Below, in pieces: positions 20,031-31,611 of a stretch of 37,885 nucleotides of DNA. Below the pieces are notes generated by a model that was not told the DNA's origin, did no database searches, and was given only the letters and a program-made list of their open reading frames with translations. Numbering within the stretch: position 1 is the first letter of the stretch; every line of letters begins with the position of its first letter. Both the position numbers and the translations under genes were made by a program. Origin of the DNA: a virus; IMG/VR virus record IMGVR_UViG_3300007344_000080, positions 1 through 37,885 of that record; one strand, given 5' to 3'.

Positions 20031-21044
20031 ATGAACCAAATAACACCAGAAAACTTAAGAGGTTTGCGTAAAAAATTAGGGTTATCAAATCAACAAGCAG
20101 CCGATAGTGTTTATAAGAACCTAAGGTTATGGCAAAGATACGAAGCTCCGTTATCAGCAAGTAGCAGTTTGAGAATACCCCCAGCGACTTTAGAACTATT
20201 CTGTTTGACACCAAATAAACAGGGCAAACTTGGTAAATTAGTTAGTTTTTATGGCGGCCAAGGAGGTGCAGGGCATACTCTGCTTACTATTGATATAAGT
20301 ATTGCCCTGATGGCAGATGGGTATGAGGTTTTAGTAATATCGGACCGAAATGGAAGTGCTTTATATAGCGAGATGTCAATTCAGCATAACTATCCATTCC
20401 CAAGAACGACCCAAGTTGAAGAACCAAGTAATATGAGGTTCGCAATTCATTTGAATCCTCCTTACCCTTCGTCTCCAAAATCAGTAAAACCTATCATAGA
20501 AAATTACGATTTCGTATTCTTAGATATTAACCGCACGCTTGCGATGGATTATTTTGATGAACTTGAACCGGACTTGATTATAGCTCCAGCTAAAATTAAT
20601 GAAGACAATATTCGCAACAGAACGGCTTTCAATAATATTAATAATTTATCCAGCAGGTTGGCAGAACAAAAAAATGTTAAGACAAAACTCGCCTTGTTGA
20701 TGGTTGCTGTGTCAACAGACTATGCGTTTAGTCCTAGTTATCATGGTTTGTTAGATGAAAATGCAGATGATTATGAGGAGGTGAGAGATTATTTTTATCA
20801 TCAGCAAGAAAAAGATCAACAGGACCAAGAAGAAATTTTAGAGTTATTTAATACGTTGGGGAAGCATGCCAATGTTCAATTTATGAATAGCTATACATCA
20901 GATGCATATGATAATTATCGGGAAAGATATGCTAAGGGGTATAGTATATTTCATAAAGCACCCAACTCACTTCCAGCTCATGAATTACGAAGTGTAAAGA
21001 ATGAAATGTTAAGGATTTTAAGTATACCGGATAAAAGTTTATAA
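20031..21044 (+). CDS. HTH-ParA-like fusion with degenerate P-loop
   Basis: A 337-residue two-domain protein. Residues 1-40 form a phage-type helix-turn-helix (ENLRGLRKKLGLSNQQAADS...LRLWQRYE). From about residue 68 it is ParA/MinD-like: LVSFYGGQGGAGHTLLTIDIS carries the deviant P-loop, then VLVISDRNG (switch-like Asp105), then YDFVFLDINR. Canonical KGGxGKT is changed to QGGAGHT: both the signature Lys (position 77) and the P-loop Lys (position 82) are missing, so ATP use is doubtful. Related HTH-ParA fusions sit near phage and island attachment sites. Repeats upstream suggest self-repression. A DNA-bound regulator or maintenance protein is likely; partition is not shown because no parB partner adjoins. 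Confidence 0.75.
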   Translation: MNQITPENLRGLRKKLGLSNQQAADSVYKNLRLWQRYEAPLSASSSLRIPPATLELFCLTPNKQGKLGKLVSFYGGQGGAGHTLLTIDISIALMADGYEVLVISDRNGSALYSEMSIQHNYPFPRTTQVEEPSNMRFAIHLNPPYPSSPKSVKPIIENYDFVFLDINRTLAMDYFDELEPDLIIAPAKINEDNIRNRTAFNNINNLSSRLAEQKNVKTKLALLMVAVSTDYAFSPSYHGLLDENADDYEEVRDYFYHQQEKDQQDQEEILELFNTLGKHANVQFMNSYTSDAYDNYRERYAKGYSIFHKAPNSLPAHELRSVKNEMLRILSIPDKSL

Positions 21045-21122: not shown

Positions 21123-21377
21123 ATGCACGATCAACTATTTGAAGCGCTGAGATGTTGGGCTCGAAAACCAACCTGGTTTACTGGTCACCCGAGTGATGAA
21201 AGTAATTTCAAGTTAGCGGTATCCAATGTAAAAAACTTACCATTTACACCCACAAAAGATGAGATTTATGAAGCTATTTTAGAACATCAAAAAGATGCTC
21301 CCGCTGTTCTAGATACACCAAAAGATATAAGACCTCAAGCTGAACAGTTCGCTATAAAAATAGCTAAGAAGCTTTAG
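21123..21377 (+). CDS. Small unknown protein beside attP
   Basis: An 84-residue protein, start fixed by a very strong AAGGAG five bases from ATG. It is aromatic-rich at the N-terminus (RCWARKPTWFTGHPSDESNFKLAV) and helical and charged in the second half (DEIYEAILEHQKDAP...AEQFAIKIAKKL). It follows the HTH-ParA gene by 78 bases and ends 12 bases before the first attP repeat. No family recognised. The position, next to attP and far from int, is that of genes at the distal end of a prophage. Confidence 0.65.
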   Translation: MHDQLFEALRCWARKPTWFTGHPSDESNFKLAVSNVKNLPFTPTKDEIYEAILEHQKDAPAVLDTPKDIRPQAEQFAIKIAKKL

Positions 21378-21491
21378 TCCAAAGCGCAGTTTTGGATCTA
21401 TTTTGGATCAGTTTGATAAATAAAAGAGACTACACCAGACCTCAACGGCATAGTAAATAATACCCCTGTGTAGTCTGAATATATTCTATCA

Positions 21492-21518
21492 GGGGTTCAA
21501 ATCCCCCCAGCTCCACCA
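21492..21518 (+). other. attP core: 3' end of ssrA (tmRNA)
   Basis: GGGGTTCAAATCCCCCC followed by AGCTCCACCA is the T-arm and acceptor 3' end of gammaproteobacterial tmRNA, including the encoded CCA. Bases left of 21492 do not continue the tmRNA (the fifth T-stem base is A rather than G, and the upstream tRNA-like domain is missing), so this is a phage-borne restoring fragment and not a broken gene. Integration would swap it for the host 3' end and keep tmRNA intact. Confidence 0.88.
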
Positions 21519-21521
21519 TTA

Positions 21522-21556
21522 AAAACCCTTGTAATTCAATGAGTTACGAGGGTTTT
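21522..21556 (+). terminator. Terminator after the ssrA fragment
   Basis: Thirteen-bp stem AAAACCCTTGTAA / TTACGAGGGTTTT (21522-21534 / 21544-21556, one G-T pair) ending in TTTTCTCTTT. It is placed where a tmRNA gene terminator belongs, three bases after the CCA end, so the phage would provide both the 3' end and the terminator of the host tmRNA after integration. Confidence 0.85.
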
Positions 21557-21735
21557 CTCTTTCTAGTGGATCCGTATTGGATCAATTTCATAATTTCCCA
21601 CCTCATAACACCCATTGAGTTAAATGTTTGTATTAAAATTTAGTAATACTAAAGTTTGTTGATGTTTATCATTTTAATGTGGTTCAACTTACTGCATAAT
21701 CTTTTTCGGAAGTTTTAAAACAACAAAGGGATATC

Positions 21736-22236
21736 ATGAAAAAATCAATTCTAAAAACTGCATTATTCGTCAGCGTATTATCAGTTATAGCTGGTTGTCA
21801 AACTACATCTACAGTATACAAGCCTGTAGAAGTAACTGAAGTTGTGAACATTCCAGGTCAAAGCCAAGAAGAAATATACAATAAAACTCGTCAATGGTTT
21901 TCACAGTATTTTGTTTCTGGTGAGTCTGTTGTTGATTACGAAGATCCAAAAGCAGGCACTATTATTGGTAATGGTATTGCTGATAATGGCACCGATTTTA
22001 TGGGCATCATTCGATATAGCTTTAAATATAATGTTCGAATTGATACCAAAGATGGTAGATTTCGTGCTATAACAAAAATTGTTGAGCATACAAATACAGA
22101 CACTAGTAAAAGTTACACTGCTTCTTATGTAACCGATGAGAGAAGTGCAGCAGCCGAGCAAAAAGTAAAAGAAATTGTTAGTAACATAGAGAGTTATGTA
22201 ACAAGTGAAAGGCATGATTCTAAATCTAGTTGGTAG
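21736..22236 (+). CDS. Lipoprotein, DUF4468-like
   Basis: A 166-residue exported lipoprotein: signal KKSILKTALFVSVLSV, lipobox IAGC with Cys21. The mature part resembles the DUF4468 (TBP-like fold) family: SQEEIYNKTRQWFSQYFVSGESVVDYEDPKAGTIIGNGI, then YSFKYNVRIDTKDGRFRA, then a helix. These are usually chromosomal periplasmic lipoproteins of unknown function, so this looks like a host-derived lysogenic-conversion gene. It lies on the integrase side of attP, with its own 180-base upstream region and a terminator, and is oriented against the neighbouring antirepressor. Confidence 0.82.
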   Translation: MKKSILKTALFVSVLSVIAGCQTTSTVYKPVEVTEVVNIPGQSQEEIYNKTRQWFSQYFVSGESVVDYEDPKAGTIIGNGIADNGTDFMGIIRYSFKYNVRIDTKDGRFRAITKIVEHTNTDTSKSYTASYVTDERSAAAEQKVKEIVSNIESYVTSERHDSKSSW

Positions 22237-22249
22237 CGAAACTTAAATA

Positions 22250-22275
22250 AAACCCGCTTAATTAGCGGGTTTTTT
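22250..22275. terminator. Bidirectional terminator between lipoprotein and KilA-N gene
   Basis: Nine-bp stem AAACCCGCT / AGCGGGTTT (22250-22258 / 22264-22272) with loop TAATT, flanked by A's on the left and six T's on the right. It serves the plus-strand lipoprotein gene and the convergent antirepressor gene. Confidence 0.88.
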
Positions 22276-22280
22276 ATGCC

Positions 22281-22883
22281 TTAGTATTTATGGATTAGCG
22301 GGCTAAGTTTTTCGTTGGCGGCTTTGGCTATTTCGAGTAGCTGATAGGGCTGTATTGCCATACTCTCGCGGATGACGTTGGGTAGTTTATCGAATGATGT
22401 CACCATATCATCAAGTGCAAGCGCTTGGGTTCGGGTTGTTTGGCCGTTTTCTATGGTGAGTAAAATTCGTTGGTAGTCGAGAGGGGCGGGTGCTTTGGCG
22501 ATGGCCATTTGTTGCTGGGCGTCAAATGCGCGGATCACTTGTAAGTGAAATTGTGGGCTTATCCACATGGCGTATGCGTAAACCAGTTCTTTGCATACCC
22601 AAGTTCCTGAGTTTCTACCACCTCGCTTGGTCCTAAGCGGTTTGGAACACTCCTTATTGCTATCCAAATTCTTAAACCCGTAATCTCGGGATTGAGATAC
22701 TTCACCAATATACATCGTATTGCTTTGCTCTATTTCAGTTATTAAATTTTGAGTTTGCTCAATACTGAGGAAGTAATTAGGTTGATGCTTTTTTTCTGAA
22801 CCGGCAGCACGATGAAGATCATTTAGAGAATATAACCCGTCTTGTAGACGAATTTTATTTGATAAGATAAATAGATTAGTCAT
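22281..22883 (-). CDS. KilA-N domain antirepressor
   Basis: A 200-residue protein whose residues 5-121 form a KilA-N DNA-binding domain: GLYSLNDLHRAAG, then HQPNYFLSIEQTQNLI, then GTWVCKELVYAYAMWISPQFHLQVIRAFD, which is the diagnostic end of the domain. The C-terminal 80 residues are helical. Such proteins act as phage antirepressors that inactivate CI and trigger lytic growth. AGGAG six bases before ATG 22883 is a strong ribosome site, but it overlaps the target of an upstream C4-like antisense RNA, so translation is probably held off in the lysogen. Transcribed from a promoter just after int. Confidence 0.88.
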   Translation of the reverse strand: MTNLFILSNKIRLQDGLYSLNDLHRAAGSEKKHQPNYFLSIEQTQNLITEIEQSNTMYIGEVSQSRDYGFKNLDSNKECSKPLRTKRGGRNSGTWVCKELVYAYAMWISPQFHLQVIRAFDAQQQMAIAKAPAPLDYQRILLTIENGQTTRTQALALDDMVTSFDKLPNVIRESMAIQPYQLLEIAKAANEKLSPLIHKY

Positions 22884-22889
22884 TGCTGA

Positions 22890-22934
22890 CTCCTGTTGAA
22901 TAGTGATTTAACATCACCACCAAAGTCGTCAAAC
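22890..22934 (-). promoter_or_regulatory. C4 target sites b2 and a2 over the antirepressor RBS
   Basis: On the minus strand GTTTGACGAC (b2, 22934-22925) and TTCAACAG (a2, 22900-22893), the latter sharing two bases with the ribosome site AGGAG (22894-22890). Both are complementary to loops of the RNA encoded at 22941-23017: eight contiguous bp for a2 and seven for b2. Binding would cover the antirepressor start. Confidence 0.75.
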
Positions 22935-22940
22935 AGATGG

Positions 22941-23017
22941 TGGTGACGCGAGCAGGGTTGACGAACCGGCTTCAACAGATACCGGCAGACCCGAAGATCT
23001 CCCCACCCGCGCCACCA
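22941..23017 (-). ncRNA. c4: C4-type antisense RNA
   Basis: A 77-base element that folds as minus-strand RNA. Outer stem of ten bp, one G-U (23017-23008 with 22950-22941: UGGUGGCGCG / CGCGUCACCA). Inside, GGGU / ACCC (22992-22989 / 22958-22955) encloses CCGG / CCGG (22985-22982 / 22969-22966) with a 12-base loop carrying CUGUUGAA, the exact complement of UUCAACAG at the antirepressor RBS. A second stretch UUCGUCAA is complementary to UUGACGA in the b sites. Size, order and two complementary motifs match the C4 RNAs of phages P1 and P7, which repress ant translation. Confidence 0.8.
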
Positions 23018-23044
23018 TAATGCAGGTACGCGAATGCGCTGACA

Positions 23045-23076
23045 CAAAAAAACACGCAAATACTCAGAGGCGTGTT
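23045..23076 (-). terminator. Intrinsic terminator upstream of C4
   Basis: Read on the minus strand: AACACGC / GCGTGTT (23076-23070 / 23057-23051) with a 12-base loop, then seven T's (23052-23046). It lies downstream of the int stop and between the a1/b1 sites and the C4 element. It could end integrase transcripts or act as an attenuator for the antirepressor transcript. Confidence 0.7.
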
Positions 23077-23084
23077 TCGTGTCT

Positions 23085-23110
23085 CTGTTGAACTTTTCAG
23101 GTCGTCAAAC
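23085..23110 (-). promoter_or_regulatory. Upstream C4-complementary sites a1 and b1
   Basis: Exact second copies of the a and b target sequences: GTTTGACGAC at 23110-23101 and TTCAACAG at 23092-23085 on the minus strand, in the same order as b2 and a2. P1 and P7 immI regions likewise carry duplicated a1/b1 and a2/b2 sites around c4. They may titrate C4 or let it act on the leader. Confidence 0.65.
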
Positions 23111-23139
23111 CCGATACCAGATTTTGCTGGTAAGGCCTA

Positions 23140-23168
23140 AGTATGTGCTCAGAGACTTTTAATGTCAA
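23140..23168 (-). promoter_or_regulatory. Promoter for C4-antirepressor transcript
   Basis: Minus strand: perfect -35 TTGACA (23168-23163), 17-base spacer, -10 CATACT (23145-23140, four of six consensus bases). The -35 overlaps the end region of int. The predicted start near 23133 lies just before the b1/a1 sites. Confidence 0.7.
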
Positions 23169-23170
23169 CT

Positions 23171-24424
23171 TCATAGGGCTTTCTTACTTTGTGTTGGTAC
23201 GCTGGTGCTTGCGAATATCTTTGATACTCTCGCGGCCATGTCGGGTATTTCTTCGTTCATCCATTTACCGTAATGTTTTTCTAACATGGTGATGGATGTG
23301 TGGCCCATTTGGCGAGCTATCCAACGTTCGGCTACGCCTTTGGTAAGCAGCTGGCTTGCAAATGTGTGGCGAGCTTGGTTTATAGCGCGGTAGCGAATAC
23401 CACACTTTTTTAAATGCTTTTGTAAAAATCGTTTATTAACGTTTTGGCCATCGGTATGCGGCTTTTGGTTTAGGCTGTTAATAAACACAAATCTAAGCTC
23501 TGCTTTTTCATAGCTGCGGTTGTCATCTTTTAACACATCGACCTTGATTGCCGGCATTGCAAATGAAAGTGCCTTTTGACGAATTAATATGTCGTATGCC
23601 TGGTCTAGTAGGTCGATGTTTCTGTAGCTGCCGTCATTTTTCGTGTAGGCATAATCGCCTTTGGTAACACCACGCCTGATTTTTATTTGTCGTTTTACAA
23701 AATCAATGTCTTCCCATGCAAGCGCGTAGCACTCTGATGCGCGTAAGCCTGTCCAACAAGCAAATAAAAACCCGTTAAGCTCACTTTGATCAGCGGTTGG
23801 CTGCGAGTCTATCAACTGCAATTCGTCTAAGGTGAACGGATCACAGTTTTCTGAGCGGCTTCTTTTTAAATTTGGTAAATGGTCGAGCGGATTAAAGTCT
23901 ATTAACCTATCGGCCATTGCATCTTTGAATATGCCACGTAGGGGAATAAACACATCGTTAATTGTTTTATTCGATAAAAACGTGGTGAGTGTTAAGTCGC
24001 GCCAGTCTCGGATCATGGTTAAGGTGACTTTGTCTAACTTTAACTCGCCAAATTGCGGGCGAATGTATAGTTTGCACCTGGCTAAATTGTGCTTGTAGTT
24101 ATCTGCCCGGGTGTTGGCTTTGTTTCTTTCTAGCCATTTGTCTAAAGCAGTGTTCACTGTTGGTACTGCACCTTTTCCCTCAAACAATCTTACCTTTGCT
24201 GAATCAGGAAAATGCTTAGCGTAGTTAAATTGGTTGGTTGCAATCTCATGCAGTATGGCGGTACGTTTATTCGATGCAAATTTGATATTTGATTTAGATA
24301 TCAAAATGCCTTTAAGGGGCTCTATGCAACGCACACCACGGTAACTGAACATAATACGTATGTTTTTACCGTGGATGGTGACACCCTCATACTTTTTACA
24401 AAACTCACGCAGCGATGCCGTCAT
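23171..24424 (-). CDS. int: Tyrosine recombinase integrase
   Basis: A 417-residue site-specific recombinase expected to integrate the phage at ssrA. N-terminal residues 1-80 look like the DUF3596-type arm-DNA-binding domain (GVTIHGKNIRIMFSYRGVRCIE). A core-binding SAM-like domain follows (about 88-185), then the catalytic domain: Arg228 in TGLRASE, Arg352-His353 in ARHTFAS, His375 in MGHTS, and Tyr385 in EKHYGKW. All catalytic positions are intact. ATG 24424 is chosen over an in-frame TTG two codons earlier. It overlaps the excisionase gene by 20 bases. attP lies 1.6 kb away with two genes between, which is farther than usual. Confidence 0.96.
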   Translation of the reverse strand: MTASLREFCKKYEGVTIHGKNIRIMFSYRGVRCIEPLKGILISKSNIKFASNKRTAILHEIATNQFNYAKHFPDSAKVRLFEGKGAVPTVNTALDKWLERNKANTRADNYKHNLARCKLYIRPQFGELKLDKVTLTMIRDWRDLTLTTFLSNKTINDVFIPLRGIFKDAMADRLIDFNPLDHLPNLKRSRSENCDPFTLDELQLIDSQPTADQSELNGFLFACWTGLRASECYALAWEDIDFVKRQIKIRRGVTKGDYAYTKNDGSYRNIDLLDQAYDILIRQKALSFAMPAIKVDVLKDDNRSYEKAELRFVFINSLNQKPHTDGQNVNKRFLQKHLKKCGIRYRAINQARHTFASQLLTKGVAERWIARQMGHTSITMLEKHYGKWMNEEIPDMAARVSKIFASTSVPTQSKKAL

Positions 24425-24608
24425 TATCAAAATACTCGTCTAATTTTTCATAGTTATACACAACAACACCGCGTACTTTTTTCCAGTGCACACCCTCTAC
24501 GATTTTACCAGTTTGGCGCATTCTATTGAGTGCATCGTCGGTAAAGCCTTTGTGTTGTTCGATGATCTTGGCTTTCACCCAGCCAAGTTTTACGTATGTA
24601 ACGGTCAT
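24405..24608 (-). CDS. xis: Excisionase (recombination directionality factor)
   Basis: A 67-residue winged-helix protein of the lambda-Exc-like family: VKLGWVKAKIIEQHKGFTDDALNRMRQTGKIVEGVHWKK is characteristic ('...k...G.w.eG.hW'), followed by VVVYNYEKLDEYF. It bends attachment-site DNA and drives excision. Translational overlap with int means the two are made together from the early left operon, so int/xis output depends on derepression of that promoter. Confidence 0.9.
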   Translation of the reverse strand: MTVTYVKLGWVKAKIIEQHKGFTDDALNRMRQTGKIVEGVHWKKVRGVVVYNYEKLDEYFDNDGIAA

Positions 24609-30884: not shown

Positions 30885-31520
30885 TTATCTTTTTCTGTAA
30901 CTACCAATTACAACACCGCATACTGTTGCGTCTGGCAGCATCTCAATTATTGGCTTAGGCCAGTTTGGATTTAATGCTTTTAGGTATTTTTGACTTCCAT
31001 CAATAATAAGCTGTTTAAAGGTCGCTTCTAAGTTACCGTTTTGTCTAACAACTACACACGAGCCGTTTCTTGCTTCAACCTCGGGATCCACAAAAATAAT
31101 TTCTCCATTAACGAAATCAGGTGACATCGATTCACCAACGACTTGTAAAGCAAAGGTGCGGCTACTGTGTTTTTCTGGGCAAGGATAAAACTCATCAACT
31201 TCTGAAGGTTGGAGTGCCTCACATATTTCACTCCAAGCGCCAGCTTGAACCCAACTAATGAGAGGGACATCAGATTTATGCTGAGAGATATTTAACGTAT
31301 TACTTTCAGTAAGCCCCATTAGACCATCTCCTGACTCTAACCAATCAGCAGATACATTTAAAAATCGAGCAATAGCGAGAAGGTTTCTTGGTTTTAAGGT
31401 TTTCCCTGCACAAATTCCCTGAATCGATTGCTGGCTAGAACCAACTGCTGTAGCAACTTGTTCTTGTGTTAGTCCTTTTTCCTTTAAAACGTAGTTTAAA
31501 CGTTGAGCTAAGGTGTTCAT
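30885..31520 (-). CDS. cI: CI-like repressor (XRE HTH plus S24 protease domain)
   Basis: A 211-residue LexA/CI-type repressor. Residues 1-62: HTH (LAQRLNYVLKEKGLTQEQVATAVGSSQQSIQGICAG). From about 85: S24 domain with cleavage site Ala93-Gly94 in WVQAGAW, Ser131 in VGESMSPD, Lys169 in EATFKQL. It should therefore be inactivated by RecA after DNA damage. The frame extends upstream to 31601, but ATG 31520 starts the family N-terminus; the extension overlaps two operators and is rejected. It is divergent from cro, with three operators between, and heads the transcript that includes the ParB-like and methyltransferase genes. Confidence 0.95.
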   Translation of the reverse strand: MNTLAQRLNYVLKEKGLTQEQVATAVGSSQQSIQGICAGKTLKPRNLLAIARFLNVSADWLESGDGLMGLTESNTLNISQHKSDVPLISWVQAGAWSEICEALQPSEVDEFYPCPEKHSSRTFALQVVGESMSPDFVNGEIIFVDPEVEARNGSCVVVRQNGNLEATFKQLIIDGSQKYLKALNPNWPKPIIEMLPDATVCGVVIGSYRKR

Positions 31521-31551
31521 AAGTATTGGCACTGTTGTTTTTAGATAGTTT

Positions 31552-31611
31552 ACAAAATAATTTGTATAATAAAAAACAATATAAATTGTTGTAAAATACA
31601 ATTTAAGTTGT
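31552..31611. promoter_or_regulatory. Right operator region, three repressor sites (OR)
   Basis: Three ACAA-N6-TTGT sites: 31552-31565 (centre AATAAT), 31576-31589 (TATAAA) and 31598-31611 (TTTAAG), spaced 24 and 22 bp. They lie between the divergent cI and cro genes and have the same half-sites as the three at the left promoter, giving a lambda-like six-operator switch. Confidence 0.88.

Follow-up and report, generated by a model that had tools for sequence, protein, structure and literature searches.

Gene content and layout of the locus

The window, by which we mean the whole 37,885-nt stretch of temperate-phage DNA analyzed, carries on its minus strand an antirepressor-like gene and, ahead of it, a compact series of RNA features. 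The Pfam match of the gene product agrees with the KilA-N identity given in the initial annotation, and the protein is predicted to antagonize the phage repressor; a LexA/UmuD-like repressor gene is found at 30885–31601. The integrase gene (24430–23171) lies upstream of the unit, and the 3′ part of a tmRNA gene was matched at about 21300–21518 (+) with an E value of 2e-7, under the model threshold. As this tmRNA 3′ end is the likely core of an attP that directs integration into ssrA, the placement of the module between int and attP, as annotated, holds, with one extra gene in the gap. That gene (21736–22236, +), oriented independently and flanked by the KilA-N gene and attP, encodes a DUF4468 protein with a lipoprotein-like start and is possibly an accessory gene. 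A 337-aa protein at 20031–21044 (+) unusually combines two weak matches, one repressor-like at the N terminus and one to the ParA-like AAA_31 family. We found no DNA match for 22600–23300 among sequenced phages (blastn, 11-base words) or for 21400–24500 among plasmids (megablast), and one contig, L094, was identical to the window across the 4.6 kb compared.

The features of the unit are given below in the direction of transcription. Site letters follow the P1 record: a1 and a2 are copies of GTTTGACGAC and partners of the C4 junction a′, and b1 and b2 are copies of TTCAACAG and partners of the C4 loop b′.

23140–23168, minus strand: predicted promoter, TTGACA-17-CATACT (10 of 12 consensus positions), start predicted near 23133, where the isrK model starts
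23046–23133, minus strand: short isrK-like leader RNA of about 87 nt, ending at an intrinsic terminator (RF01394); predicted C4 target and decoy
23101–23110, minus strand: a1 site GTTTGACGAC (exact repeat; pairing with C4 junction)
23085–23092, minus strand: b1 site TTCAACAG (exact repeat; pairing with C4 loop)
23065–23087, minus strand: putative antiterminator helix, CAGAG (23087–23083) with CTCTG (23069–23065), overlapping b1 (sequence comparison; AGAGG/CCTCT at the same place in the relative L086)
23046–23075, minus strand: intrinsic terminator, ACACGC/GCGTGT and a T run, between leader and C4 (sequence; isrK model alignment; script, on the identical locus L094)
22936–23022, minus strand: C4 antisense RNA, 87-nt model (RF01695, 81.4 bits; fold z −5.5)
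22971–22978, minus strand: C4 loop b′ CUGUUGAA (Rfam alignment, fold, complement of TTCAACAG)
22958–22964, minus strand: C4 junction a′ UCGUCAA (sequence, Rfam C4 alignment)
22914–22946, minus strand: alternative hairpin of the C4 3′ arm TCACCACCA (22946–22938) with TGGTGGTGA (22922–22914), a2 looped (arm-match statistics)
22925–22934, minus strand: a2 site GTTTGACGAC, just 3′ of C4 (exact repeat)
22893–22900, minus strand: b2 site TTCAACAG, overlapping the Shine-Dalgarno sequence AGGAG at 22894–22890 (sequence)
22281–22883, minus strand: KilA-N antirepressor-like protein, 200 aa (PF04383, 3.1e-22, 78.9 bits; PHROG transcription-regulation and anti-repressor families)

A C4 RNA with Two Pairs of Target Sites

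The Rfam C4 search that had been proposed as a check of the initial annotation aligned model positions 1–87 of 87 with no broken pairs and scored 81.4 bits against a threshold of 45. The closed outer stem described on the minus strand is equally clear, as the fold of 23022–22936 has an energy of −46.4 kcal/mol (z −5.5), which none of 200 shuffled sequences reached, and comprises an outer stem of 17 bp, a UUCG hairpin, and a second hairpin with CUGUUGAA in its loop. The C4 family identity is confirmed, and the element joins an established class as a new member; by analogy, the mature RNA would be about 77 nt long.

Both motifs claimed to occur twice as exact copies, at the ribosome-binding site (RBS) and near the transcript start, were located, the RBS pair overlapping the KilA-N Shine-Dalgarno sequence. 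A second target pair 5′ of C4, a feature of C4 membership, is thus present (23101–23110 and 23085–23092). The two exact copies of GTTTGACGAC compare with 0.02 expected by chance, whereas TTCAACAG as a bare 8-mer occurs four times in the window against 2.2 expected and does not pass an above-chance test alone; because the bare 8-mer is not rare, its weight as evidence comes from its position and from the family-wide loop test below. Both target copies are complementary to C4, over 8–9 bp at the loop and 7 bp at the junction (in the leader, 10 bp if one bulge is allowed), with predicted energies of −8.7 to −13.8 kcal/mol. The annotated complementarity to the antirepressor RBS corresponds to an 8-bp loop match (−10.4 kcal/mol) and a 7-bp junction match (−8.7 kcal/mol).

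The unit had been likened to P1/P7 immI (c4-icd-ant). The two share the order a1-b1, C4, a2-b2, the loop and junction sites, and an antirepressor downstream, and the P1 leader also has a terminator and a competing helix (TGCGG/CCGCA). In P1, however, C4 is separated from ant by icd and targets the icd RBS; in the window, the KilA-N start follows the end of the C4 model by about 52 nt, which leaves no space for icd, and b2 overlaps the Shine-Dalgarno sequence of the antirepressor itself, a KilA-N protein and not P1 Ant. The comparison therefore stands for the site order and the leader and RBS sites but not for icd, the RBS site here belonging directly to the antirepressor gene.

Leader, Terminator, and a Competing Helix

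The perfect −35 reported for the promoter is present (TTGACA, in the promoter at 23168–23140, −), but the overall score of 10/12 is at chance level by itself, 1.2 such sites being expected per shuffled region. Its −10 ends 7 nt 5′ of the first base of the isrK model (RF01394), which matched 23047–23133 (−) by the narrow margin of 52.1 bits against a threshold of 50 and ends in the terminator. The c4-a1b1 model (RF03163) aligned over its full length to 23094–23146 (−) with an E value of 4e-9 and 41.4 bits and did not reach its threshold of 46.7. The leader, which besides a1 and b1 also carries a hairpin, works like c4-a1b1, though formal membership in RF03163 fails on the threshold.

The intrinsic terminator (23075–23046, −) was absent from the initial annotation. 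The putative antiterminator helix opposed to it has a 13-nt loop and forms in nascent folds. When the window leader was folded with b1 free or blocked, the minimum-energy state of the full-length leader was the terminator both times; in the leaders of L127 and L082, blocking b1 did change the full-length minimum-energy fold. The result for the window favors a reading in which the RBS is the sole site of C4 action, the classical view for P1, with the leader sites as passive remnants or as decoy only and the terminator merely tuning read-through. Pairing at the RBS is, moreover, the demonstrated mode of C4 in P1/P7 (PMC5320573). We consider this reading possible but rather unlikely, given the conservation of the terminator and the competing helix far beyond shuffles and the effects of leader changes in Gifsy-1, both described below.

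Loop and Targets Change Together across C4 Loci

We collected C4 candidates from viral contigs and species genomes with an exact-pattern search that required the outer stem; the nonredundant set consisted of 106 cores with 106 different loops. Many pattern matches in high-GC bacterial genome contigs lacked the outer stem and were discarded as chance. For each locus, the reverse complement of the loop was sought within 220 nt on the upstream side and within about 140 nt on the downstream side. The locus's own loop matched at least 7 nt on both sides in 44% of the 106 loci, in comparison with 0.5% for foreign and 0.5% for shuffled loops; the loci are mutually related and the percentages are hence not independent trials, a kinship that the swap of foreign loops was meant to address. 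As own loops match far more often than foreign or shuffled ones, the targets on both sides follow the loop. With the C4 model over threshold, sites in both leader and RBS, and this change of loop and target together over the 106 loci, the annotated C4 antisense control of the KilA-N gene is very probably correct.

The downstream match usually takes in the AGG or AGGA of the Shine-Dalgarno sequence, and the start codon lies 44–57 nt 3′ of C4 in 87 of 103 loci. Pfam domains of the downstream proteins (n = 81) included Bro-N in 22, P22_AR_N and pRha in 4 each, ORF6N in 3, KilA-N in 2, and AntA in 1, and many of these proteins match anti-repressor PHROGs. C4 before an antirepressor is therefore the rule, with KilA-N one choice among several; that a KilA-N gene is under C4 control is not special. 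In the five neighborhoods of the closest KilA-N phages (L226–L230), C4 was over threshold in none, sRNA-Xcc1 was found in Pmp14 and VaK, sar in Emek, and none of these in SfV and ST64B.

A terminator separates leader and C4 in 67 of the 106 loci (63%), against 10% of shuffles. A helix of at least 5 bp competing with the terminator was found in 73% of the 67 unique leaders, compared with 12% of shuffled ones and 36% with foreign leaders; because of the last value, part of the antiterminator signal is a shared motif. The helix pairs the 3′ end of b1 and the following bases with the 5′ arm of the terminator or the adjoining loop, shares bases with b1 in 38 of 40 cases, and varies in sequence on both arms (GGCGG/CCGCC, GGCGC/GCGCC, AGAGG/CCTCT, GAGCG/CGCTC, CAGAG/CTCTG in the window, and TGCGG/CCGCA in P1). 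The C4 3′ arm finds a match of at least 7 nt after a2 in 39% of C4 loci versus 5% of shuffles, the partners being TCACCACC/GGTGGTGA in Gifsy-1 and TCATCACCA/TGGTGATGA in L086. This alternative hairpin may present a2 in transcripts after C4 excision.

The Gifsy-1 isrK Locus Reads as a C4 Unit

At the Salmonella IsrK locus of Gifsy-1, the isrK, c4-a1b1, and C4 models scored 79.3, 48.1, and 69.0 bits, all above threshold and in that order ahead of anrP (L225:34131–34316, spanning isrK, STnc1160/orf45, and the anrP RBS). The unit has the same promoter–leader–terminator–C4–antirepressor order as the window, the same ACACGC/GCGTGT terminator stem, and a TCACCACC...GGTGGTGA hairpin around a2; it differs in its antirepressor AnrP, an ORF6N protein, in its loop specificity, and in having antQ upstream. 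The 2016 study of this locus described IsrK, a processed RNA of ~80 nt named STnc1160, and "orf45," and likened STnc1160 to the CI RNA of phage P4 (PMC4825925); its text contains neither "c4 RNA" nor "phage P1." Judged by sequence, isrK/STnc1160/anrP is a C4 unit. When the published positions were mapped on the record, G28 and G31 fell in a1 (AUUGGCGUC), C159 and C162 in the C4 junction a′ (ACGCCAA), while A107, where orf45 starts, lay at the 5′ end of C4.

With a′ mutated (C159U/C162U), anrP translation, otherwise 4 units, reached 926 and 484 units, IsrK supplied in trans raised it 171-fold and transcription 8-fold, and mutating a1 (G28A/G31A) abolished the activity in trans (PMC4825925). As the published mutations sit in C4 pairing sites, IsrK is better read as a C4 target and decoy. 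Leader mutations in cis increased expression 23- to 55-fold (PMC4825925); together with the 8-fold effect on transcription in trans, this fits attenuation and speaks against an action of C4 at the RBS only. Double mutants in a1 and a′ regained repression only partly, to 224 and 327 units (PMC4825925), which follows on the C4 reading from the remaining mismatch of a′ with a2; with a single intramolecular helix, recovery should have been complete. Less easily accommodated is the finding that co-expression of orf45/STnc1160 did not counter the toxicity of IsrK but made it stronger (PMC4825925), an outcome unexpected under a plain decoy model.

The published IsrK model, backed in Gifsy-1 by mutational, native-gel, and 30S data (PMC4825925), would have the leader and the C4 region ("orf45") refold within the long transcript (structures A/B), with short IsrK activating orf45 translation, to which anrP is coupled. 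For the window we regard this as improbable. In addition to the partial recovery of the double mutants, "orf45" begins at the 5′ end of C4 in a region that is a full C4 match of 69 bits, and the ORF that starts with the corresponding ATG in the window stops after 29 codons, inside a2. This ATG is present in 71 C4s, in only 6 of which the ORF ends at the start of the antirepressor, and a conserved coupling ORF through C4 as a general feature was rejected.

We found no connection of IsrK with C4 in the openly searchable literature, a scope too narrow to establish priority, and a 2025 review gives IsrK and C4 as separate items (PMC12197685). The P4 CI RNA, a processed leader RNA that pairs with sites on either side of itself and favors termination, resembles the C4 units and provides a precedent for antisense-driven termination (PMC4825925); the likeness is one of description, and no Rfam link of CI to C4 was seen in our searches.

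sRNA-Xcc1 as a Proposed Parallel Family

In the KilA-N phages Pmp14 and VaK, the place of C4 directly ahead of the antirepressor gene is taken by sRNA-Xcc1 (RF02221; L229:2383–2466 and L230:2383–2468). This RNA was described from Xanthomonas, with targets that are predicted only (PMC2996969). Like C4, it is a hairpin RNA, with 87 positions, whose loop and junction match the antirepressor leader and RBS; unlike C4, it forms a separate Rfam family without a clan link, its terminator is rarer, and an antiterminator is not clear. We assembled 61 nonredundant viral loci. A loop match of at least 6 nt in both the leader and the RBS region was found for 78% of own loops (n = 59), against 5% of foreign and 3% of shuffled ones, and the genes that follow (n = 48) encode Bro-N (14), AntA (10), pRha (8), KilA-N (8), and P22_AR_N (4) proteins. 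The leaders of sRNA-Xcc1 gave no support for an antiterminator (17% vs. 12%). From these sequence patterns, we propose that sRNA-Xcc1 is a second C4-like family of immunity RNAs; the literature searched does not recognize it as such and names no established target for it. Two sRNA-Xcc1 copies are present at each of L257, L280, and L304, and L283 combines an sRNA-Xcc1 with a C4. Such loci with paired antisense immunity RNAs hint that several specificities are kept side by side.

A Proposed Immunity Switch

The unit probably serves as a secondary immunity switch in which one promoter drives the leader with a1-b1, the terminator, C4, and the KilA-N gene. Read-through transcripts would carry C4, which would then be cut out, at the 5′ end by RNase P in P1. 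The C4 loop and junction would pair with b2-a2 across the antirepressor Shine-Dalgarno sequence, so that translation is blocked and the prophage stays quiet. Loop and junction would also pair with a1-b1 in the leader, where binding to b1 most likely removes the overlapping antiterminator helix; the terminator could then form, and C4 would restrain expression of the operon that encodes it. The short isrK-like RNA left by termination may sequester C4 and thereby free the antirepressor. Of this scheme, the C4 identity, the pairing sites and their covariation across relatives, the terminator, and the conserved competing helix are observed, while expression, processing, and repression are inferred, as are attenuation and decoy action; for the attenuation and decoy steps we put the chances at about even. 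That the element is a degenerate fossil without function in the window phage is most improbable, since its stem pairing is perfect, the four target sites and the terminator are intact, and L086, with a KilA-N protein 68% identical, has a different C4 loop and targets changed to match.

The element itself is one more C4, and what is gained comes from the comparison, namely a probable attenuator, a new assignment for IsrK, and a proposed function for sRNA-Xcc1. In the general form, C4 units would be attenuators as well as translation blockers, with b1 part of an antiterminator and the a1-b1 RNA a decoy; IsrK would be such a decoy, P1 would have the same switch, and sRNA-Xcc1 would be the second family. 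We judge this whole as likely to be right as to be wrong. The comparison links the Rfam entries C4, c4-a1b1, and isrK as parts of one unit and explains the published IsrK data more simply. The 106 C4 loci with their 106 loops read as an open-ended set of phage immunity specificities.
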